A stretch of DNA of 64,000 nucleotides from a virus: the IMG/VR virus record IMGVR_UViG_3300044800_000040, positions 1 through 64,000 of that record. One strand, given 5' to 3'. Below, piece after piece: positions 39,128 to 61,917 of this stretch. Numbering within the stretch: position 1 is the stretch's first letter; each line of letters starts with the position of its first letter. The notes under the pieces were generated by a model, which worked only from the letters and a program-made list of their open reading frames with translations, had not been told where the DNA came from and made no database searches. A program made the translations under genes and the position numbers.

Positions 39128-41095
39128 CTAGCCGCAGACCACCGCATAACAGGACAGGACGAGGCCGGCCCGGCCGCTGGCGTAGTAGGGCTCCTTGAAG
39201 CACTCCAGCACCAGGGCGGCGTGGGGGTTGTCCCCCTTGATCAGCACGCTGGTGAAGTAGCCGAGCACCGAGCGGCGGATGGACTCCTCGTCCTGGTCTG
39301 CCAGGCCACGTAGGATGGTGGCGATGGGTGCCCAGGTCAGCTTGCCCTTGCCCATGAGCGCACGACACAGCTCGATGGTGGCAGACAGGTCAGCCGCCGC
39401 CTTGTCCACCATCTTGACCTGATCCGCAGGGGAGAGGTCGATGAGCGCCTCGAGGATGGACAGGGCGAGCCTGGCACTGCCCACGGCATTGCGTGCGATG
39501 AGCTCAACCACTTCTTCCGACACCTTGGCCTTCTCGGCACGGCATACCCGGTTGACCAGGGCAATGAGCTTGGCTTCGGTAAGGCTGCTCACCTCGTAGG
39601 TTGTGAGCCGGGTCTTGACCGTCGGCAGCAGCTTCTGCGGCTCGGTCGTCGCCATGAGCACGAACACATGACCCGGAGGATGCTCCAGCCCTTTCAGCAA
39701 GGCATTCTGGGCGTCATTGGTGAGCTTGTGGCAGTTGTGTACCAACACCCCACCTGCGAAGTAGCTGGGGTGCCCATCGATCTCGAGGTCATGGTATTCT
39801 ACGAAGCCGCGACGAATTTCATCACTTGTGAAATCACTCGGGCCAAGTCCTGCATCACCTCCTGATTCGTAAAGCGCAACACCACCCACCCGAACGAGTG
39901 CAGGAGCTCCGTCTTTTTCGTATCCAGCAGTGAATTCCGCCTCGACCTGTGCCCACGTCCGTCCACTTCTACGGCAATTTTCAACACAGAATTTGCGATG
40001 TCCACCTTGTAGCTGTTCGGGCACCCCGGTGCTTTCCCCGTCGGGATCACCACTTCCATCGGCCAACCAAGTGCCGTCGCCAGCAGGCGTTGAGGTTCTG
40101 TTGTCTTCCCGTTCCCTCCCCGCGCCCCCTTCCATATGCGAAGGGAGCCCTTGGCTGTCTTGGTCGCACGGGCCTTCTCCAATGTGATGGGGTTGGCCGA
40201 CGGGTTGTCTCGCTGCATGCGCTGACTGTGCGCCTGTCTCTCCGCAGCCCCCTCTGGGGTCTCCATCAGAAACCGCTTCCGACTGATGGAAATCTTTGCC
40301 GCAACTTGCGCGTTGTGCACCTTGGCACGGACTTCCGGAAGTGCCATCCGTCTCACCGCTGCACATGACCTGGAGCATGTCTGCTGATTGTACTTCTCCT
40401 GTCGGTTCGGAAAGAACGGCATCGGTGTACTGCATACTGGGCACGGTCTCGTCGTTGTCATTAGGAACCTCCGCAAGCATCGCTGGTGAGCTTGTGCGGT
40501 CCACATTATGACAATTCATGGGGTATAACAAGTCCCCCTCACGAAGATCACCAGCGGGCACCCACCCTCGCGTGGTGCGGAACAGGTGCTCCCGAGAGCA
40601 GCGGATGTCCCCTTGGTCAGTATGCACCCGCGCTGTGCGCTCCAAGGGCACCTTGTTGACAAAGTGGTTGAGCACTGTGCGGAATCCCTGCATGGATTGC
40701 ACAAGTTCGCCGGGCTGGATGTCTTGAATGGGTCGCACCCCGCCCAGGCACACGACAGGTGTGTCGGCCGCGAAGCACTCGTCCAGGAAGAAGACCCGGC
40801 ACGGCCCGGCCATCGGCTTGAGCCGCATCTGCTGGCGCAGGTCACGGATGGAGTCGATGCCGCGGAAGTCCGCGCTGTCCACTTCCTTGAAGTCCAGCTC
40901 CATGTTGCAGCCCAGTTCGGCGGCGACGATGCGGGCAAGGGTTGTCTTGCCACAGCCCGACGGGCCGAGGAACAACATGGAGTGCGGGATGTTCTCCCGG
41001 TCACGGGCCAGGACGTTGCGCAGGGACTCGATCACCTGGGGGTTACCAAGCATCTCGTCCAGGCTTTGCGGGCGGTGTTTATTGTACAGCGACAT
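39128..41095 (-). CDS. Clamp loader ATPase interrupted by an intein
   Basis: This 655-residue precursor has Walker A 'GPSGCGKTT' near residue 45 and 'FFLDE' at 102-106 directly followed by the intein (107-454), then 'CHKLTNDAQNALLKGLEHP', the rest of the Walker B/sensor region, 'MATTEPQKLL' and the C-terminal collar. The spliced product of 307 residues matches phage replication factor C-like clamp loader subunits (T4 gp44). It loads the sliding clamp encoded at 43986. Confidence 0.9.
   Translation of the reverse strand: MSLYNKHRPQSLDEMLGNPQVIESLRNVLARDRENIPHSMLFLGPSGCGKTTLARIVAAELGCNMELDFKEVDSADFRGIDSIRDLRQQMRLKPMAGPCRVFFLDECFAADTPVVCLGGVRPIQDIQPGELVQSMQGFRTVLNHFVNKVPLERTARVHTDQGDIRCSREHLFRTTRGWVPAGDLREGDLLYPMNCHNVDRTSSPAMLAEVPNDNDETVPSMQYTDAVLSEPTGEVQSADMLQVMCSGETDGTSGSPCQGAQRASCGKDFHQSEAVSDGDPRGGCGETGAQSAHAARQPVGQPHHIGEGPCDQDSQGLPSHMEGGAGREREDNRTSTPAGDGTWLADGSGDPDGESTGVPEQLQGGHRKFCVENCRRSGRTWAQVEAEFTAGYEKDGAPALVRVGGVALYESGGDAGLGPSDFTSDEIRRGFVEYHDLEIDGHPSYFAGGVLVHNCHKLTNDAQNALLKGLEHPPGHVFVLMATTEPQKLLPTVKTRLTTYEVSSLTEAKLIALVNRVCRAEKAKVSEEVVELIARNAVGSARLALSILEALIDLSPADQVKMVDKAAADLSATIELCRALMGKGKLTWAPIATILRGLADQDEESIRRSVLGYFTSVLIKGDNPHAALVLECFKEPYYASGRAGLVLSCYAVVCG
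39734..40777 (-). mobile_element. Intein in the clamp loader, inserted at DE/CH
   Basis: The 348-residue intein starts with Cys in 'CFAADTPVVC', has a B-block-like 'CSREHLFRTTRGWVPAGDL' near its residue 70 and ends 'GHPSYFAGGVLVHN' before +1 Cys. Between about its residues 105 and 325 the frame is low in hydrophobic order and matches no intein endonuclease; it is the shadow of the nuclease gene in another frame. The insertion splits the Walker B motif between Glu and Cys. Confidence 0.92.
39799..40461 (-). CDS. EDxHD-type homing endonuclease overprinted on the intein
   Basis: This 220-residue protein starts at ATG 40461 with GGAGG 7 bases upstream and is read in a different frame from the intein around it. 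It has a zinc finger (CPVC, then CSRSC near residues 8-36), a basic middle, and a Vsr-like core: 'VLKIAVEVDGRGHRSRRN' near 160 followed by 'KKTELLHSFGWVVLRF'. The Glu-Asp-x-His-Asp-like residues match the nuclease family found in fractured split-intein genes of phages. It should spread the intein by cutting intein-free alleles. Confidence 0.85.
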   Translation of the reverse strand: MTTTRPCPVCSTPMPFFPNRQEKYNQQTCSRSCAAVRRMALPEVRAKVHNAQVAAKISISRKRFLMETPEGAAERQAHSQRMQRDNPSANPITLEKARATKTAKGSLRIWKGARGGNGKTTEPQRLLATALGWPMEVVIPTGKAPGCPNSYKVDIANSVLKIAVEVDGRGHRSRRNSLLDTKKTELLHSFGWVVLRFTNQEVMQDLARVISQVMKFVAAS

Positions 41096-46750: not shown

Positions 46751-48523
46751 CTACTTGCCGCAGAGCGCCATGAGTTCGGCGCGGGCGCTGGAGCCCTTGA
46801 AGGTGTCCTCAAGGAACACGCCCTTCAGCGAGCTGTAGCCCATCACCGAGTGCTGCTTCTCAACGCCCCGGGCGGTCATGCACAAGTGCTTGGCCTCGAT
46901 GATGCAGGCGGCACCCTTGGGCTGGAGGTGCGTCATGAGCGCCTCGGTGACCTGCTCGGCAATGCGCTCCTGCACCTGGAGCCGGCGAGCGTAGACCTCG
47001 AGGATGCGGGCCAGCTTGCTGACTCCGATCACCTTGCCGTCGGGGATGTAGGCGATGGTGGCGTGCCCGAAGAACGGGATCATGTGGTGCTCGCAGTTGT
47101 GGACGACAATGCCGTTCGCCACGAAGTTCTGGTGCCCTGGCACTTCCATGCACCACACGTCTTCGGTGTAGTTGAGCTCCTCAACTCCGAGTACCTTGTG
47201 ATTCGGTACGCGCTGCTCCTTCCAACTGCGCTTGACGGACTCGGACCGCTTCTTGCACATTGCTTCCCGCTTGTCCGGGTCAGCCATCATCTTTGCCAGG
47301 CCGGCCCACTGCGCGGCATCGAACGCTTCCCGCTCCTGCGTCGTCATCCTCGCCCAACGCTCGGCCTCGCGTGCCCCACGCCCGTCCTCTTGCGCGTGCA
47401 AGCGGGAGTGAGCACTCGGGGACAGGATGGACAGATTGCTCGGGTCATTGTTCGCCGGGTTGCCGTCGAGATGGTGGACGTGCTCATGCTGGCGCAGCTC
47501 TCTGCCGAGCATGGCCGCCATGATCTTCCGGTGCTCCGCAACCAGCTTGCCGTCCTTGTACTGAATGTGGCTCCTGGGCTTGTCCGCGTGCATGATGATC
47601 CCACGGAGCAGGGCAACCACCGATTCGCCGGGAAGCAGGTCCGCCGCCGCCACCCACCCGCGCTTGTATGTCAAGAAGCGGTGGTTGGGGGTGCAGATGA
47701 CAGTATCCTTATCGGTGTACACCCGCACCAGCTTGGCGTCGCGCTGGGTGATCCTCGGGTTCTGGCAGCGCACGAGGTCGAACCGCTGGGTGTCCTCGTT
47801 CCAACTGTACACCCAGTCTCCGTCTGCAAGGCGACTGATGGGCACACGGCCCTTTGGGGTTTCGATGAAGGTGGAGCCTACAAGGCACGTGGAGTAGAAC
47901 TCCACGTCCTTGAGGTAGACCATGCCGCCGCTGGCCTTCTCGTTGAAGACCTTGAACAGCTCCTCCACGTCGGAGTGGTAGCCTTCGAAGAGCTTGCCGT
48001 ACGACTTGACCACCCTGGCCGGGGTCTCCAGCAAGCCCTCGCGGTTGGGGTCCTCGCCGATGTACTCGAGGATGCGGACGATGTTGTCCTCCGGCCCGGT
48101 CTCGCCCTTCATGGTCTCCCACCAGAACTCGACCCAGGTGTCCAGGGTGAACAGGCCGGCTTCGATCATGTAGTTGCGCTGCACCGGGGTGAAGTCAGAG
48201 TTGTTCGGCTGGGCGGAGCTGTGCTTCTTGTACGTCAGCGCCGCGAAGGGGAAGCCGAAGAACCGCTCCCTGGTCGCCCCGGTGTCACAGATGTCGTCGA
48301 CCACCAGGACCTCGGGGTCCGGCCCGGCGGGCAGGTCGGTGCGGATGGGCAGGTTCAGCAGGTTGGAGAGGATGATGGCCGGGTACAGGCCACCACGGGG
48401 CACGGGGTAGATGCTGCGCAGCATGCTGCCAGGGGGGAGGAACTGGCACTGCACGCGGATGTGCTTGGCAAGCTCACGGCAGAGCTGTTCCACAGTAGAG
48501 TGGTCGAGGACAACGCGGGGCAT
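46751..48523 (-). CDS. folE: Phosphoribosyltransferase-GTP cyclohydrolase I fusion with intein
   Basis: This 590-residue precursor starts after AAGGAG. Residues 1-140 are a purine phosphoribosyltransferase-like domain with 'PVPRGGLYPA' near 40 and the PRPP loop 'VLVVDDICDTGAT' near 72, ending 'TWVEFWWE'. Residues from 145 are GTP cyclohydrolase I: 'GEDPNREGLLETPARVVKSY' near 157, then the intein (213-476), then 'CEHHMIPFFGHATIAYIPDG' with the zinc Cys and His, and later 'EAKHLCMTARGV' with the second zinc Cys. FolE makes the first intermediate of preQ0 synthesis; the PRTase may salvage guanine. Confidence 0.92.
   Translation of the reverse strand: MPRVVLDHSTVEQLCRELAKHIRVQCQFLPPGSMLRSIYPVPRGGLYPAIILSNLLNLPIRTDLPAGPDPEVLVVDDICDTGATRERFFGFPFAALTYKKHSSAQPNNSDFTPVQRNYMIEAGLFTLDTWVEFWWETMKGETGPEDNIVRILEYIGEDPNREGLLETPARVVKSYGKLFEGYHSDVEELFKVFNEKASGGMVYLKDVEFYSTCLVGSTFIETPKGRVPISRLADGDWVYSWNEDTQRFDLVRCQNPRITQRDAKLVRVYTDKDTVICTPNHRFLTYKRGWVAAADLLPGESVVALLRGIIMHADKPRSHIQYKDGKLVAEHRKIMAAMLGRELRQHEHVHHLDGNPANNDPSNLSILSPSAHSRLHAQEDGRGAREAERWARMTTQEREAFDAAQWAGLAKMMADPDKREAMCKKRSESVKRSWKEQRVPNHKVLGVEELNYTEDVWCMEVPGHQNFVANGIVVHNCEHHMIPFFGHATIAYIPDGKVIGVSKLARILEVYARRLQVQERIAEQVTEALMTHLQPKGAACIIEAKHLCMTARGVEKQHSVMGYSSLKGVFLEDTFKGSSARAELMALCGK
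47096..47887 (-). mobile_element. Intein with in-frame HNH endonuclease in folE
   Basis: The 264-residue intein runs from Cys in 'CLVGSTFIETPKG' to 'GHQNFVANGIVVHN' before the FolE zinc Cys (+1). Block B is 'CTPNHRFLTYKRGWVAAADL'. The middle holds an HNH nuclease in the same frame: 'HEHVHHLDGNPANNDPSNL' then 'SPSAHSRLH', followed by basic helices. It interrupts FolE at the catalytic zinc site, so no activity is possible before splicing. Confidence 0.9.
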
Positions 48524-48525
48524 GT

Positions 48526-49311
48526 TTACTCCTTGGTGTGGTCGCCACAAACGACACGGCGTCCGCCCGGCAGGTTGGGGTCGTCAGGGCCACCGACGAG
48601 GATGGTGTGCTCCGCGGTTAGCGTATTGTGCGAGATGTGGGGCAGCGGGTCGCGTCTCCCAGCCTTGGCGAAGGCCTCGATGCGTTCGACGCAGGAGCCG
48701 CACTTTCCGCAAGAGGTGGGCTGGTCTTTGTAGCAGGTGCGGGTCAGCTCGTAGGGCACATTCAGCAGGGTGCCCATGATGGCGATGTCACCCTTGTCCA
48801 TGCCCAGGAAGGGAGCCAGGATCTCCACCCGGGAGCCGGTGCCCAGGAACAGGGCGGTGTCCATCGCCTTGATGAACTCGGGCCGGCAGTCCTCGTAGAT
48901 GGCGTGATCACCCGCATGGACACCCAGGGCGATGTACGGGGCGCCCTTGCTCCAGGCCAGGCCCGCCATGAACGAGCTGAAGATGATGTTGCGTGCGGGC
49001 ACGACGGTCGCGCTCATGCTGGCGTCGGTGTAGTGCCCCTCGGGGATGGCCGGGCCGTCGCCCATGAGCGCCGACTTGAAGCCGATGAAGGCATCGGTCA
49101 GGTCGATCAGAGTGCGCTGCAGGCCGTAGTGGACGCAGAGCTTGTCGGCGGCGGCGCTCTCGTACTGGTTGTGCTTGCTGCCGTAGATGAAAGAGATGGG
49201 GATGGGCTCGCAACCCTTGTCAATCAGATGGGCGAGCAGGGTGGCACTGTCCATGCCACCGCTGACGGCCACAACGACCTTGGTGCCTGGGACGAACTGC
49301 GGTGTGATCAT
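48526..49311 (-). CDS. queC: QueC, 7-cyano-7-deazaguanine synthase
   Basis: This 261-residue enzyme has the PP-loop 'VVAVSGGMDSATLLAHL' near residue 13 and a C-terminal zinc cluster (TCYKDQPTSCGKCGSCVERI) near 210. It turns 7-carboxy-7-deazaguanine, ATP and ammonia into preQ0. There is no N-terminal amidotransferase domain, which argues against the archaeosine-type G+ base. Its last codons (AAG GAG TAA) form the ribosome-binding site of folE. Confidence 0.92.
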   Translation of the reverse strand: MITPQFVPGTKVVVAVSGGMDSATLLAHLIDKGCEPIPISFIYGSKHNQYESAAADKLCVHYGLQRTLIDLTDAFIGFKSALMGDGPAIPEGHYTDASMSATVVPARNIIFSSFMAGLAWSKGAPYIALGVHAGDHAIYEDCRPEFIKAMDTALFLGTGSRVEILAPFLGMDKGDIAIMGTLLNVPYELTRTCYKDQPTSCGKCGSCVERIEAFAKAGRRDPLPHISHNTLTAEHTILVGGPDDPNLPGGRRVVCGDHTKE

Positions 49312-57538: not shown

Positions 57539-58234
57539 CTACGCCGTGAGAAAAGAGCGAAGGAGGTTTTGCGCGATGGTGCCCGTGTTTGCTTTGCCGT
57601 GGCAACTGGCGCACAGGCAGATGAGGTTGGTGGGGGTGTTGTTGTCCTTGTCGAAGTCGATGTGGTGTACATCCATCTTGCCATGAGTTCGGGAGCAGAA
57701 TCGACAGGCGTTCCCATCGCGCTGCCGGATCGCTTGGCGTAGCCAACGTGTCCATTCTTTCCCGTATGGCAGGGAGCTCACTCCACCCTGCCAGTTGGGA
57801 CCATCCTCCCCGCGGAACTTGCCGGTGTTTGCTTCGCGCAAACGCTCCTTCGTTGCTTGTGTGTGCTGCTTGCCGAGGAATGCGTTTGGGTTGTTCTGGT
57901 GCCATTCTTTCAGGGTGCGTGAGATTGCTTCGCGCTGATCTTGTGGTATTTGTTTGCCCTTGCTGGAGGCGGATATCTTGTCCCCCCAAGTGATCATGCG
58001 CCCCATCATTCCCCGCGAAATCTTCTGACGGGTTTCCGCGGATACGCAGTACCCCTGTTCCTTGTGCAGACGCTCTCGTTCGGCAGCCGCCACCGACATT
58101 TTTTTCTTGGCCTGTTCGGTATGTCGATGACCAGTGGAGGCCACTCGGCGGGCCTCCACTTCTTCCGGATGCTCCGCTAGTCTCTTCTTCATGCTGGCGG
58201 AGATCTTGGCGCGGCGTTGTTCTTCGTTGGTCAC
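57539..58234 (-). CDS. Free-standing HNH homing endonuclease with NUMOD3-like repeats
   Basis: This 231-residue protein starts at GTG after AGGAGG. Residues 10-150 hold several basic NUMOD3-like repeats (ISASMKKRLAEHPEE, SAETRQKISRGMMG, SSKGKQIPQDQREAIS), and the end is an HNH domain: 'RDGNACRFCSRTHGKMDVHH' near 170, 'NTPTNLICLCASCH' near 200. It lies just downstream of the intein-bearing SNF2 helicase and has lower GC than its neighbours. Confidence 0.88.
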   Translation of the reverse strand: MTNEEQRRAKISASMKKRLAEHPEEVEARRVASTGHRHTEQAKKKMSVAAAERERLHKEQGYCVSAETRQKISRGMMGRMITWGDKISASSKGKQIPQDQREAISRTLKEWHQNNPNAFLGKQHTQATKERLREANTGKFRGEDGPNWQGGVSSLPYGKEWTRWLRQAIRQRDGNACRFCSRTHGKMDVHHIDFDKDNNTPTNLICLCASCHGKANTGTIAQNLLRSFLTA

Positions 58235-58267: not shown

Positions 58268-61200
58268 TCATACTCCCCTCTTTCGGCCGATACAAGAGAC
58301 GAGCTCTGCGAGGACCCCTCCTGTGGTATTCCCAACCCCATCCATATTGGACACACCGTCCAGCGCCATGCCAATCACTTGCGCCTTGTTGTGGAGAAGG
58401 GTTGTGATGTCGTCGTCGAGGGTGTCTTGGGCCACAAGGCAGTACGAGCTGACGCTCTGCGACTCCTGTCCAATTCGGAGAACGCGGTCTTCCGCTTGGA
58501 GGAGTTCCGATGGGGTCCAAGGAAACTCCACGAAGCAGGTCGAGTCCGCCGCGGTCAGGGTGATTGCCACACCAGCCGCCTTGAGCCCGCCGATGAAGAT
58601 CCGGCAGGTCGGGTCCTCCTGGAAGCGGTCGATGAACGCCTGCTTCATCATCGGCGGGGTGCGACCGTCCAGGCGCACAGGGTTGAACTCTCCCAGAGCT
58701 TCGAAGAGCCCGTCCAGGATCTCATGGTGGTGTGCGAACACAACCAGCTTCTTGCCGCTGTCCATGTAGTCCTTGATCCACTCGATGGCTGCCTCGAGCT
58801 TGGCCTTGGCAGACCAGAGCTTCAACTGGGTGATCTGCGCCAGCACCTGCCCAGGCTCCTTCTTGCCCGGTCTGGCGTTCTCCACCGCGAACTCCGCCTC
58901 GAGCTTGGCATACGCCTTCAGTGCGGCCCGGGACAGTTCCAGGGGCACTACGCTGCGCTGCTTGATGGGCAGGTCCGGCATCACGTCCACCTTGAGGCGG
59001 CGGATCATGACGGTCTTGGTCAGCAGGGCATGCAGCTCGTCCATGTTGGAAGCGCCGTTGAAGTTCCAGCCGTAGTCGGTGCGCTTGGCGTCGCAGAACC
59101 GCTGGGTGTAATCCCAGAAGCTCGGGAACACGTCGGGGCGCAGCATGTGCAGCACAGTCCAGAACTCGATGGGGCGGTTGATGATGGGGGTGCCGGAGGT
59201 GGCCACGATGTGCCGGCAACCTGTCGCCAGGCCGGGGTGCTTGATCTTCACCTTCTGCCAGGTGGCCTTGTCCATGATCTCTTCTTCGTACCCGACGATG
59301 GCCCGGGTGCGAGCAGCCTTGGGGTTCTTGATCGCATGGCAGTTGTGAACCAGAACTTCGTTCGCGTAGTAACTTGGGTGTCCGCTGACCTGGAGATTAT
59401 ACACTGTCGCACCGTCTCCAGGACCTTCTCCGGGGTCTGTACAACCTCCCAATTCCAGAATCTCAACACGCACCACCCGAGGCTGGTCAGTACCTCTGTT
59501 TTCTTGGTGTCCAGCTTCTGTGCGCGCTTGGTCTGATGTCCCCGACCATCTATCTCGATTGCAATTTTCAGTCGGGGATGGGCAAGATCCACTTTGTAGC
59601 AATGTGGGCACTCCGGACGATTGTTTGTGGGAATAGCCACCTCCGCTGACCAATGAAGTAGGCATGCCAGAAGTTTCTGTGGTTCTGTGAGTATCCCATT
59701 CCCTCCCCGCAGGCCCTTCCACGCCCGCAGGGTCCCGTTCCGTTCCTTGGTATCTCGCATCTTCTGAATGGTGGCAGGGGAGTGCATGGGGTTCTTCTTG
59801 GTCATGCGTATTGCCGCGTCTGGTCGGGGAGCACCTTTGAGTGCTTGTGACAACTTCCTGTTGCGTTCTGGTGAGAACACCCTTTTGCGAATTTCCGGCT
59901 GGGACATCCTCCACTTCGCGGAGCAAGATGTTCCGCAAAAGCGTCTCGGCCGATTCTTTTTCTGTGCCGCAAGGAATGTCGCCCCGCACCACTCGCATGT
60001 CATTTCCGTCATTTTCATTTATTGTTCCCTCCTTGCGGGACACTATACCAAGAATCTTCTCAGCAGGAAACAATAATCTTCCGGTGAGGTTTTCTGCGGC
60101 CACCCATCCAGATTCCGTAAAGATGGGGTGGTTGGGAGTGCATTCAAAGCTGGTACCATCGTCGAGTACAACACGGACAAGCGTGCTCACTTTTTTCGAG
60201 AACACCTTCTGTACCTGTCCCATTCCGAACGCATTGTACACCCAGTCCCCCACCTCTATTTCCTCGATGGGGCGTGTGCCGTGTTCTGTGCGAATGGGGG
60301 TGCCAGCGGGGAAGCACTCGTCCAAGGCAATGACCTCGGGTGTGCCAACCTGGGCGACGATCTCGCACCACCAGTCGGAGAGGATGTCGTAGTTGACGAT
60401 GATGATCACGCCCTTGCTCTCTCCCTTGGCCTTGCGCACGGTGTGGTCGAAGATGTTGTCGTTCTTGCCGGGCTTGCCACGCAGGGTGATGACGTGCGGG
60501 TCGGACATCCACTGCAGGACATGGCGCTCCCAGGACGGCTTCGCCGTGGCAGGGCACACGATCACCGCGGGGCGAAGCTCCGGGTGCAGTTGCAGGTAGC
60601 CGATGATCTGGACGGTCTTGCCGAGACCCATGTCGTCGGCGAGCAGGGCGTTGCCGCCCATCTGGTCGAGGAAGGACACGCCCACGGTCTGGAAGGGGCG
60701 CAGCGTCTTCTGGAGGCCGGGGATCGCCAGGTCGGCGTTCTCACCCTTGGTGAAGGAGGCGAACCAGTCCTGCAGCGCCTTGCCCCGGAGTTCGAAGCCC
60801 AGGTTGCGCAGACCCTCGACGGCCTGGAACGACTGGGGCAGCGTCCAGAGCTTGCGGTCGGGGCACCAGCGGCGGCCCGGCAGATTCTTCACGTCGGCGA
60901 CGGTCTGGGGGTTGTAGGGGAAGCTCACCAGAAGCGTATTGCCCTCGAGGGTGACGAACTTGGTCGGGCTCTGGCTGCTGGCTGCACTCGCCTGGGGCAC
61001 GGCCACAGGGGGCACGGGGCGCTTGCCGTTGGGTCGGGGAGCCACCTCGGCGTGCATCAGCTGCTTGGCATACTTGTGCAGCTTGGGCTTGATGAAGGAC
61101 ATCTGCCGCTCGGTGAGGAAGCCCTTGTCCTTGTACCACTCGGCAATGCTGGTCAGGATGTCAGCGTCGATCATGTTGAAGCCAGCGCCGTTCTGGTGGG

Positions 61201-61333
61201 AGGTCGTCTGCATGTACTTCTCGTCCTCCTCCTGGCGATGGTAGAGGGTCATGAGCGCGCCGATGGCGAACTCGTCGTTGTTCTTGATCTGCTCGATGAT
61301 GCGCGCGACTTGTTCTTGCTGTTCGGCCTTCAT
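58268..61333 (-). CDS. HARP-SNF2 (SMARCAL1-like) helicase with intein
   Basis: This 1021-residue precursor starts at ATG 61333 after AAGGAG. A HARP-like domain (FPYNPQTVADVKNLPGRRWC near residue 138, then KLWTLP) precedes SNF2 motifs: 'LLADDMGLGKTVQI' near 230, 'LDE' then the intein (340-664), then 'CHAIKNPKAAR', 'VATSGTPIINRP' and the C-terminal 'QAEDRVLRIGQ' near 950. The spliced protein has 696 residues. SMARCAL1-type enzymes anneal DNA at stalled forks. Confidence 0.9.
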   Translation of the reverse strand: MKAEQQEQVARIIEQIKNNDEFAIGALMTLYHRQEEDEKYMQTTSHQNGAGFNMIDADILTSIAEWYKDKGFLTERQMSFIKPKLHKYAKQLMHAEVAPRPNGKRPVPPVAVPQASAASSQSPTKFVTLEGNTLLVSFPYNPQTVADVKNLPGRRWCPDRKLWTLPQSFQAVEGLRNLGFELRGKALQDWFASFTKGENADLAIPGLQKTLRPFQTVGVSFLDQMGGNALLADDMGLGKTVQIIGYLQLHPELRPAVIVCPATAKPSWERHVLQWMSDPHVITLRGKPGKNDNIFDHTVRKAKGESKGVIIIVNYDILSDWWCEIVAQVGTPEVIALDECFPAGTPIRTEHGTRPIEEIEVGDWVYNAFGMGQVQKVFSKKVSTLVRVVLDDGTSFECTPNHPIFTESGWVAAENLTGRLLFPAEKILGIVSRKEGTINENDGNDMRVVRGDIPCGTEKESAETLLRNILLREVEDVPAGNSQKGVLTRTQQEVVTSTQRCSPTRRGNTHDQEEPHALPCHHSEDARYQGTERDPAGVEGPAGREWDTHRTTETSGMPTSLVSGGGYSHKQSSGVPTLLQSGSCPSPTENCNRDRWSGTSDQARTEAGHQENRGTDQPRVVRVEILELGGCTDPGEGPGDGATVYNLQVSGHPSYYANEVLVHNCHAIKNPKAARTRAIVGYEEEIMDKATWQKVKIKHPGLATGCRHIVATSGTPIINRPIEFWTVLHMLRPDVFPSFWDYTQRFCDAKRTDYGWNFNGASNMDELHALLTKTVMIRRLKVDVMPDLPIKQRSVVPLELSRAALKAYAKLEAEFAVENARPGKKEPGQVLAQITQLKLWSAKAKLEAAIEWIKDYMDSGKKLVVFAHHHEILDGLFEALGEFNPVRLDGRTPPMMKQAFIDRFQEDPTCRIFIGGLKAAGVAITLTAADSTCFVEFPWTPSELLQAEDRVLRIGQESQSVSSYCLVAQDTLDDDITTLLHNKAQVIGMALDGVSNMDGVGNTTGGVLAELVSCIGRKRGV
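59248..60018 (-). CDS. EDxHD-type homing endonuclease overprinted on the helicase intein
   Basis: This 256-residue protein starts at ATG 60018, with AAGGAGG upstream (60034-60028), in another frame from the intein. It has CEWC and CGTSC zinc Cys near residues 8-32, 'GTLRAWKGLRGGNGILTEPQ' near 95 and the core 'LKIAIEIDGRGHQTKRAQ' near 150, then 'KKTEVLTSLGWCVLRF'. It is clearly related to the nuclease at 39799. Its tail runs 94 bases past the intein into host-gene sequence. Confidence 0.85.
   Translation of the reverse strand: MKMTEMTCEWCGATFLAAQKKNRPRRFCGTSCSAKWRMSQPEIRKRVFSPERNRKLSQALKGAPRPDAAIRMTKKNPMHSPATIQKMRDTKERNGTLRAWKGLRGGNGILTEPQKLLACLLHWSAEVAIPTNNRPECPHCYKVDLAHPRLKIAIEIDGRGHQTKRAQKLDTKKTEVLTSLGWCVLRFWNWEVVQTPEKVLETVRQCIISRSADTQVTTRTKFWFTTAMRSRTPRLLAPGPSSGTKKRSWTRPPGRR
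59342..60316 (-). mobile_element. Intein in the SNF2 helicase, inserted at DE/CH
   Basis: The 325-residue intein runs from Cys in 'CFPAGTPIRTEHG' to 'GHPSYYANEVLVHN' before +1 Cys. Block B is 'CTPNHPIFTESGWVAAENL'. From about its residue 100 to 300 the frame is a low-order shadow of the nuclease gene in another frame. The host motif is the helicase motif II Asp-Glu, followed by Cys-His, the same site type as in the clamp loader. Confidence 0.92.
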
Positions 61334-61359
61334 GTCTTGCTCCTTGGTTGATGTTGGGT

Positions 61360-61419
61360 GCCTCATCAGGCCAGGAGACCCAAGCTCCTAGCGACAGGGG
61401 GCGCACCCCCTGTTTCGGC
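61360..61419 (-). ncRNA. Type II hammerhead ribozyme 1
   Basis: Minus strand, 5' to 3': GCC, GAAA, stem III CAGGGGG-UGCG-CCCCCUG, UC at the cleavage site (between 61393 and 61392), stem I GCUAGGAG / CUCCUGGC (8 bp), core CUGAUGA, then GGC to close a 3-bp stem II. All core bases of the hammerhead are present. It begins directly after the stop codon of the SpoT-like gene, 59 bases before the helicase start. Confidence 0.88.
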
Positions 61420-61917
61420 TTACCTTGCCAGCGTCCGTGCAATGCTCCAGAGCCCCACGTGCCCGCGCTTGAGCACTTCAAGCAGTGCCCGCTTCTCCTC
61501 CAAGTAGGTCTGGGCGAAGGCCGGATCGAAGGCGATGATGGTCTTTGTGTTGTCGATCAGGTCGGCCAGTTTGATCGTCTGCGCCTGGGGCGAGGCCAGA
61601 GCCAAGTGCTCCAAGTCCAGGCGCTTGCGGACGGCTCGGTTGCCGTCGGTTGGCTTGGACACGTCGGTGACGGCCATGACGAGGTCAGTCACTCGCGAGC
61701 CAAAGGTTGCTGCGAGGTAGCAGGGATCGACCCCGCAGTCCTCCACCACGTCGTGCAGGAGCGCGGCTGCGATGCTGTAGTCGTCCGCCCCGGTGGAGGC
61801 CACCAGGCCAGCTACGGCGAAGGGATGCACGATGTAGGGCTCCTGCGTGTACTTGCGCTTCTGTCCGTCATGGGCGCGCAGGGCGATGTCCATGGCCTGT
61901 ATGATGATCATGCTCAT
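61420..61917 (-). CDS. SpoT/MESH1-like HD (p)ppGpp hydrolase
   Basis: This 165-residue protein has 'ALRAHDGQKRKYTQEPYIVH' near residue 12, 'PFAVAGLVAS', then 'AALLHDVVEDCGVD' near 50 (HD followed by ED) and 'DLIDNTKTI' near 118 (ND-type motif), the order of RelA/SpoT hydrolase domains and MESH1. It has no synthetase domain. It could remove alarmones during infection. Confidence 0.85.
   Translation of the reverse strand: MSMIIIQAMDIALRAHDGQKRKYTQEPYIVHPFAVAGLVASTGADDYSIAAALLHDVVEDCGVDPCYLAATFGSRVTDLVMAVTDVSKPTDGNRAVRKRLDLEHLALASPQAQTIKLADLIDNTKTIIAFDPAFAQTYLEEKRALLEVLKRGHVGLWSIARTLAR

Follow-up and report, generated by a model that had tools for sequence, protein, structure and literature searches.

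The homing endonucleases of inteins are described as nested domains at a conserved site (for reviews, see PMC6801210), and three intein layouts are known: full-length, with the nuclease in frame, mini and split. Two other systems come close to the case reported here. In fractured genes, split inteins reportedly occur with free-standing Vsr-like homing endonucleases (Dassa et al. 2009, doi 10.1093/nar/gkp095). The ShiLan domain is an out-of-frame HNH domain in a mycobacteriophage methylase, without intein or intron features and without a ribosome-binding site (PMC11855218); of the published cases located, it is the nearest. Literature searches on overprinting, on nucleases out of frame and on inteins with DUF559 returned only this last paper and a phage announcement citing such an element; it remains possible that an overlapping case is contained in Dassa et al., and this cannot be excluded.

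Here we describe inteins whose nuclease is encoded in another frame of the same DNA. Two of them lie in the window, by which we mean the whole 64,000-nucleotide stretch that was analysed, taken from a virus record of 68,690 bp (IMGVR_UViG_3300044800_000040). The explanation that we consider very likely is a mobile intein with a separately translated, overprinted homing endonuclease gene. The analysis shows the two frames and their conservation across the family, the uniform phase, the enrichment of Shine-Dalgarno sequences, the predicted folds and the allele polymorphism. Splicing, internal translation, cleavage and homing are inferred; there is no experiment, including on splicing across so long a disordered linker.

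The helicase locus and other inteins of the phage

One of these inteins lies in a SNF2-family helicase gene at the Walker B motif (motif II, the DE-box), with junctions ALDE/CFPAGTPI and EVLVHN/CHAI, where the slash marks the intein boundary. Its frame is unbroken by any stop within the helicase ORF (Table 1). The Hint and intein Pfam domains match it at about 1e-5, under their curated cut-offs; the TIGR01445 match exceeds its cut-off. The nuclease gene laid over it has a DUF559 match (DUF559/MTES_1575) of 7.9e-14, and a TAA in the nuclease frame stands immediately 5' of its ATG. The last stretch of the nuclease ORF, residues ~216-256, is encoded beyond the intein in extein DNA and does not belong to the conserved family. 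The original prediction, made from sequence alone, was of a continuous 325-residue intein with a nuclease in another frame behind AAGGAGG, and this was confirmed.

That prediction also held this locus to be a second case sharing its design and a related nuclease with a first. This held as well: the DnaX-like clamp-loader ORF of the same phage has the same layout, and the two nucleases are 44-47% identical. A phylogeny, proposed as a check, was run, and the two copies are not close sisters in either the nuclease or the intein tree. The trees have modest support, and the placement of the SNF2-locus nuclease is unresolved; as far as they go, they indicate that the copies are members of an old family and not products of a recent duplication inside this phage.

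Table 1. Features of the two overprinted inteins in the window and of their host genes
Feature	Coordinates	Strand	Details
DnaX-like clamp-loader gene, host of the first case	39128..41095	minus	655 aa
Clamp-loader intein	39734..40777	minus	348 residues; FFLDE/CFAADTPV .. GVLVHN/CHKL
Overprinted clamp-loader nuclease gene	39799..40461	minus	220 aa; +1 frame; GGAGG 5 nt before ATG; ATG at 40461, stop ends 39799
SNF2-family helicase gene, exteins and intein	58268..61366	minus	1032 aa; SNF2-rel_dom 9.1e-28; phrog_62 helicase 6.5e-94
Helicase intein	59342..60316	minus	325 residues / 975 nt; Hint/Intein_splicing, TIGR01445 intein_Nterm, AF2 model; Cys1 codon 60316-60314, last Asn codon ends 59342, Cys comes next
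N-terminal splicing region	60053..60316	minus	intein residues 1-88; AF2 pLDDT 96-98
Intein-frame linker, predicted disordered, overprinted by nuclease gene	59483..60034	minus	residues ~95-278; pLDDT ~45
C-terminal splicing region	59342..59479	minus	strand 280-288 and block 301-325 ending HN; pLDDT 94-96
Shine-Dalgarno AAGGAGG of nested nuclease gene	60028..60034	minus	9 nt 5' of nuclease ATG
Overprinted nuclease gene, zinc finger and DUF559/EDxHD catalytic domain	59248..60018	minus	256 aa; +1 vs helicase; ATG at 60018, stop ends 59248; conserved part 60018-59374
Dual-coded beta strand	59450..59479	minus	nuclease GWCVLRFWN / intein RVVRVEILEL; AF2 models

The phage has a third intein, at ~47887-47096 in a GTP cyclohydrolase I (FolE) gene (46751-48550, minus) that adjoins a QueC-like gene (48526-49311). 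This intein is conventional, with an HNH domain in frame, and offers an internal contrast to the two overprinted ones. Two further observations concern the surroundings of the helicase gene. A free-standing NUMOD3-HNH homing-type endonuclease gene with a GTG start lies directly downstream (57539-58234, minus). At the 5' end, a match to the type II hammerhead ribozyme (61352-61420, minus; 40 bits against a gathering threshold of 37) overlaps the first listed helicase ATG; the true start may possibly be an internal ATG near 61333, which has GGAG ahead of it.

A nuclease family in one phase over an open intein frame

How widespread is this layout? Relatives were searched with the nuclease alone, so that the search was blind to the intein frame. 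Lineages were defined as clusters under 85% identity, and membership by a profile demanding more than the DUF559 domain. Of 195 clusters that passed, one (L170) was excluded as a stand-alone DUF559 protein, leaving 194 lineages. The nuclease is nested in an intein-bearing ORF in 191 of them, all in the same +1 phase. The three non-nested members are two free-standing nucleases beside uninterrupted helicases (L239 and L247) and one split intein (L116). These counts are lower bounds (at least 194 and 191); because the profile scans were bounded and the profile was built from nested members, free-standing relatives may be under-counted. No in-frame homing endonuclease was found inside the family among the lineages examined.

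The host genes encode SNF2-like helicases, ResIII-type SF2 helicases, large methylase-helicases and DnaX-like clamp loaders. The intein directly follows the DE of Walker B in 155 of 189 bounded cases. Cysteine occupies position 1 in 110 of 111 bounded inteins, which end in HN, SN or KN followed by C or S. Most cases without a motif are regular-expression misses or contigs cut at the end; three that were read by eye (L236, L250 and L313) are inteins at DE/C or DEAQ/C. The layout occurs in bacterial isolates and in named phages: Pseudomonas phage MR14, Vibrio phages CP-T1, 1.088.O, K391, 103E44.1 and 159E43-1b, and Corynebacterium phage phi673. Each distinct match examined in the named phages sits in the +1 frame within a single annotated helicase CDS, with the nuclease unannotated.

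Some genomes carry more than one intein. Two overprinted inteins also occur together in another viral genome, IMG/VR contig 3300033144_006696 (L032, L085), where they lie in a clamp loader and a helicase. The helicases of L004 (IMG/VR 3300038659_000158) and L173 (Vibrio phage PS65A.1) have two inteins each. The Walker A intein has a LAGLIDADG-like domain in frame; the one at Walker B is overprinted in L004 and a mini-intein in L173.

Might the open second frame be due to chance in GC-rich DNA, or to a sequencing or assembly artefact? The GC content of the window, 62%, speaks for this reading, yet in loci that are AT-rich (30-37% GC) the third frame holds 20-31 stops while the intein frame has none. 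Over the nuclease region of the 191 nested lineages there is 1 stop in the intein frame and 3,286 in the third frame; the intein frame is fully open in 190 of the 191 (190/194 of all lineages). An intein-frame stop requires T at the third position of a nuclease codon, followed by AA, AG or GA. In the nested lineages T precedes these dinucleotides in 1 of 12,739 cases, against 7,691 of 30,208 (25.5%) elsewhere. This is the stop count in another form and not an independent test. No such avoidance is seen in the three non-nested members (69/221 vs 134/404, or 33.2%, elsewhere), in stand-alone DUF559 genes (22.0% vs 24.5%) or in C-extein codons (22.2% vs 21.4%).

Synonymous codon shuffling gives the same picture. 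For the window nucleases, a mean of 6.4 (SNF2) and 3.9 (DnaX) intein-frame stops is expected and 0 are observed. When the first 107 clusters were shuffled with each gene's own codons, 982 stops were predicted; the actual number was 11, confined to L063 and L116. Chance openness is ruled out by the shuffling together with the third-frame stops. The same layout recurs in isolated phages, bacterial isolates and independent Vibrio phages, and chance or artefact is all but excluded as an explanation. The original prediction had argued that two loci make a sequencing artefact unlikely, and had proposed a search for the nested layout in other phages. The argument held, given its recurrence in isolates, AT-rich loci and independent Vibrio phages; the search, when run, found the layout in viral contigs, named phages and bacterial genomes. 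The observed layout is genuine and extends far beyond two loci.

Why is the phase always the same? By dynamic programming, the nuclease protein forces no stop in the used phase in 107 of 107 cases, because every NNT codon has a synonymous NNC. In the other forward phase at least one stop is forced in 97 of the 107 (mean 2.57), because Met followed by a codon starting with A gives TGA. A nuclease gene landing in the used phase would therefore be tolerable after synonymous changes alone. We propose this synonymous escape as the likely explanation for the single phase; it is possible that a single nesting event in the ancestry of the family is responsible, which would equally give one phase.

A different objection is that the middle region is an intron, or is otherwise removed at the RNA level, so that the open intein frame is irrelevant. 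In its favour, group I introns are known to harbour phage homing endonucleases of this type (I-Bth0305I, PMC3943268). An intron, however, would need no open host frame, yet only one of the 191 nested lineages fails to keep it open; moreover, HINT motifs flank the middle region. We found no match to Rfam intron families in the window region or nine related loci, so that the criterion for a group I or II intron, a ribozyme core flanking the endonuclease ORF, is not fulfilled. This reading can be all but dismissed.

Start sites, predicted folds and mobility

If the nuclease is a separate gene, it should have its own start site. The ATG closest upstream of the zinc finger is preceded by 5 nt or more of matching Shine-Dalgarno sequence in 39 of 100 lineages, whereas this holds for 107 of 2,228 other ATGs in the vicinity; for matches of at least 6 nt the figures are 20 of 100 and 20 of 2,228. 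About half of the family members have no recognisable match of 4 nt or more at that ATG, which counts against the proposed explanation. The rival view is that programmed +1 frameshifting yields a fusion of the N-terminal intein part to the nuclease, which would then be no separate gene. The phase is always +1, as a conserved frameshift would also give. Against it stand the enrichment at the nuclease ATG, an in-frame stop that precedes the ATG by 20 codons or fewer in 114 of 176 nested members, and the free-standing relatives, which are stand-alone genes. At the helicase locus of the window, the TAA right before the nuclease ATG would terminate any upstream frameshift. We regard frameshifting as very unlikely.

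Which of the two frames is conserved? In Vibrio phages K391 and 1.088.O (L009 and L010) the differences at nuclease codon positions 1, 2 and 3 number 5, 1 and 35, and the same bases give 97.7% amino acid identity in the nuclease and 86.7% in the intein frame. This comparison shows that the conserved frame is that of the nuclease.

The predicted folds fit two distinct proteins. The AlphaFold2 model of the nuclease has a mean pLDDT of 93.5; its fold neighbours are I-Bth0305I at the top (3r3p; 5.5e-4 in another comparison), a DUF559 protein and Vsr. Residues E155, D157, H161 and D170, which we take to be the E, D, H and D of the EDxHD motif, are invariant in the family. The nuclease thus passes the fold and motif test for an EDxHD (Vsr-like) enzyme; site-specific cleavage is inferred. 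In the intein model, residues 1-88, 280-288 and 301-325 form a HINT domain with high confidence; the linker that they surround has a pLDDT near 45. The best PDB match of this model is the gp41-1 intein (1.1e-7). The block B histidine, H63, is invariant, and the tests for the HINT fold and for terminal residues (Cys or Ser at position 1; HN, then Cys, Ser or Thr) are passed; splicing activity is inferred.

At one place the same bases are structured in both proteins: intein strand 280-288 and nuclease strand 183-188 are encoded together. In a set of 100 lineages, one frame of this region gives GWxVLRFxN and the other a sequence similar to RVESVEIL. Synonymous choice in the nuclease is biased here toward the intein residues. 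The Gly of GW is encoded by GGG in 83 of 99 cases, against 371 of 1,131 elsewhere (P 1.5e-23, which overstates the precision because lineages are not independent).

Vibrio phages with nearly identical helicases carry three alleles of the site: empty, mini-intein and overprinted. The empty allele, in 234P10, is an uninterrupted helicase with 98.9% protein identity to that of K391 and 93.6% identity in flanking DNA. The overprinted element of K391 is 1,068 bp long, and comparison with 234P10 gives its exact boundary, GATGAG followed by TGTCACCAC. The mini-intein allele (143-150 aa) is found in K453, PS65A.1 and 13VV501A. Such presence and absence in near-identical helicases indicates mobility; homing itself is inferred. 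The original prediction spoke of a mobile element type that keeps the host frame while bringing its own gene, and this is supported by the 191 nested lineages, the single phase and the Vibrio alleles. It needs one correction: the element is an ordinary HINT intein with its homing endonuclease gene out of frame, so that it is the intein linker that preserves the host frame.

Both trees track host gene type, with exceptions (12 changes for the nuclease and 16 for the intein, against ~49 in shuffles; Mantel r 0.54, p 0.001). One helicase copy (L085, on contig 3300033144_006696) combines a nuclease of the DnaX clade with an intein of helicase type, a mismatch suggesting that the nuclease part can move between inteins.

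Relatives that deviate from the intact nested layout look like stages. In L239 (2992-5260) and L247 (2986-5275) the nuclease gene lies directly upstream of an uninterrupted ResIII helicase gene and overlaps its start, as expected of a homing endonuclease next to its target gene. In L116 (3436-5728, a Lacinutrix MAG) the helicase intein is split and the family nuclease lies between the halves, overlapping the ends of both; this may be a transition from overprinted to fractured. L142 (a Planctomycetota MAG) retains an eroded nuclease, ~100 aa with internal stops, in an intact intein whose 2170-aa host ORF is open, and L063 has one stop in the intein frame. A series from free-standing to overprinted to fractured or eroded is plausible, its direction being inferred. 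Salmonella phage S16 UvsW (L175) has a split intein at the same DE/C site with the endonuclease-like gp114.1 between its halves; gp114.1 is not a member of the overprinted nuclease family.

Could the intein effectively be split already, its halves acting in trans and the continuous frame being incidental? L116, with a nuclease between its halves, S16 UvsW, split at the same site around another nuclease, and the structural match to gp41-1, itself a split intein, all favour this. But no stop interrupts the window frame, and 190 lineages keep theirs open, while the split and free-standing members do not. We find this reading very unlikely.

We return to an intact intein with an overprinted gene. 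The proposed mobile intein sits at the Walker B (DE/CH) codons of the helicase, and its homing endonuclease would be a separate gene over the linker in the +1 frame, not an intein domain. When the full ORF is read through, the HINT halves would fold around the ~180-residue disordered linker, splice and restore the helicase. A second ribosome would start at the internal Shine-Dalgarno and ATG and make the zinc-finger DUF559/EDxHD endonuclease, a step inferred from these signals and from conservation. The nuclease would cut intein-free alleles, and repair would copy the whole element in, as inferred from the polymorphism. The linker frame would be selected only for openness, apart from the one strand coded in both frames. 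A bolder reading, likely when its parts are taken jointly, is that 'overprinted inteins' are an old and widespread class whose splicing and homing proteins come from two frames of the same DNA, a specialist of the Walker B codons in helicases and clamp loaders, locked in the sole synonymously tolerable forward phase and standing between free-standing and fractured arrangements.

Comparison with known systems

The layout has consequences for annotation and for the study of overlapping genes. An overprinted homing gene is missed by standard gene calling, and each of the phage records checked has just the helicase annotated; a six-frame check may be worthwhile for large inteins whose middle part cannot be recognised. 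As an overlapping-gene system it is well replicated, with a full overlap of ~200 codons, 191 lineages and a clean phase rule, and it offers free-standing members as controls and one beta strand in two frames.

The ShiLan domain resembles these elements in having a homing-type nuclease gene in another frame, an open host frame and a patchy distribution. It differs in that no splicing domain was found, the element is retained in the protein, the nuclease is of HNH type, in the third frame (the other phase) and without a ribosome-binding site, and its hosts are mycobacteriophages. Overprinted inteins have a HINT intein, an EDxHD-type nuclease, Shine-Dalgarno sites and ~190 lineages, and they fail the test for the ShiLan type. 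I-Bth0305I is the top fold match (3r3p) and has the same E, D, H, D order in its catalytic motif, but it belongs to a group I intron, whereas the nucleases of the family are encoded over inteins and carry a zinc finger at their N terminus.

Like overprinted inteins, fractured genes are reported to combine splicing domains with an EDxHD/Vsr-like endonuclease that is encoded independently, again in phage genes for DNA metabolism. In them the intein is divided between two genes around the nuclease; the window intein is continuous over it and fails the test for a split intein. Only the relative L116 meets that criterion, and it might be a fractured derivative of the overprinted layout. This suggests a route to split inteins: when the frame no longer stays open, the only way left is for the two halves to act in trans.

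In conventional large inteins, such as PI-SceI and the FolE intein of the window, HINT halves likewise flank a homing endonuclease between blocks B and F. There a LAGLIDADG or HNH nuclease is in frame and one polypeptide has both activities; overprinted inteins use two proteins from two frames. They fail the test for a conventional bifunctional intein, the nuclease always being +1 and the intein-frame linker disordered. Mini-inteins share the HINT domain and, in Vibrio phages, the insertion site, but are 143-150 aa long and have no nuclease gene. We class overprinted inteins as a variant of inteins and not as a new kind of splicing. They form a fourth, repeated layout beside the full-length, mini and split ones, and the intermediates seen here connect inteins with both free-standing homing endonucleases and fractured genes.
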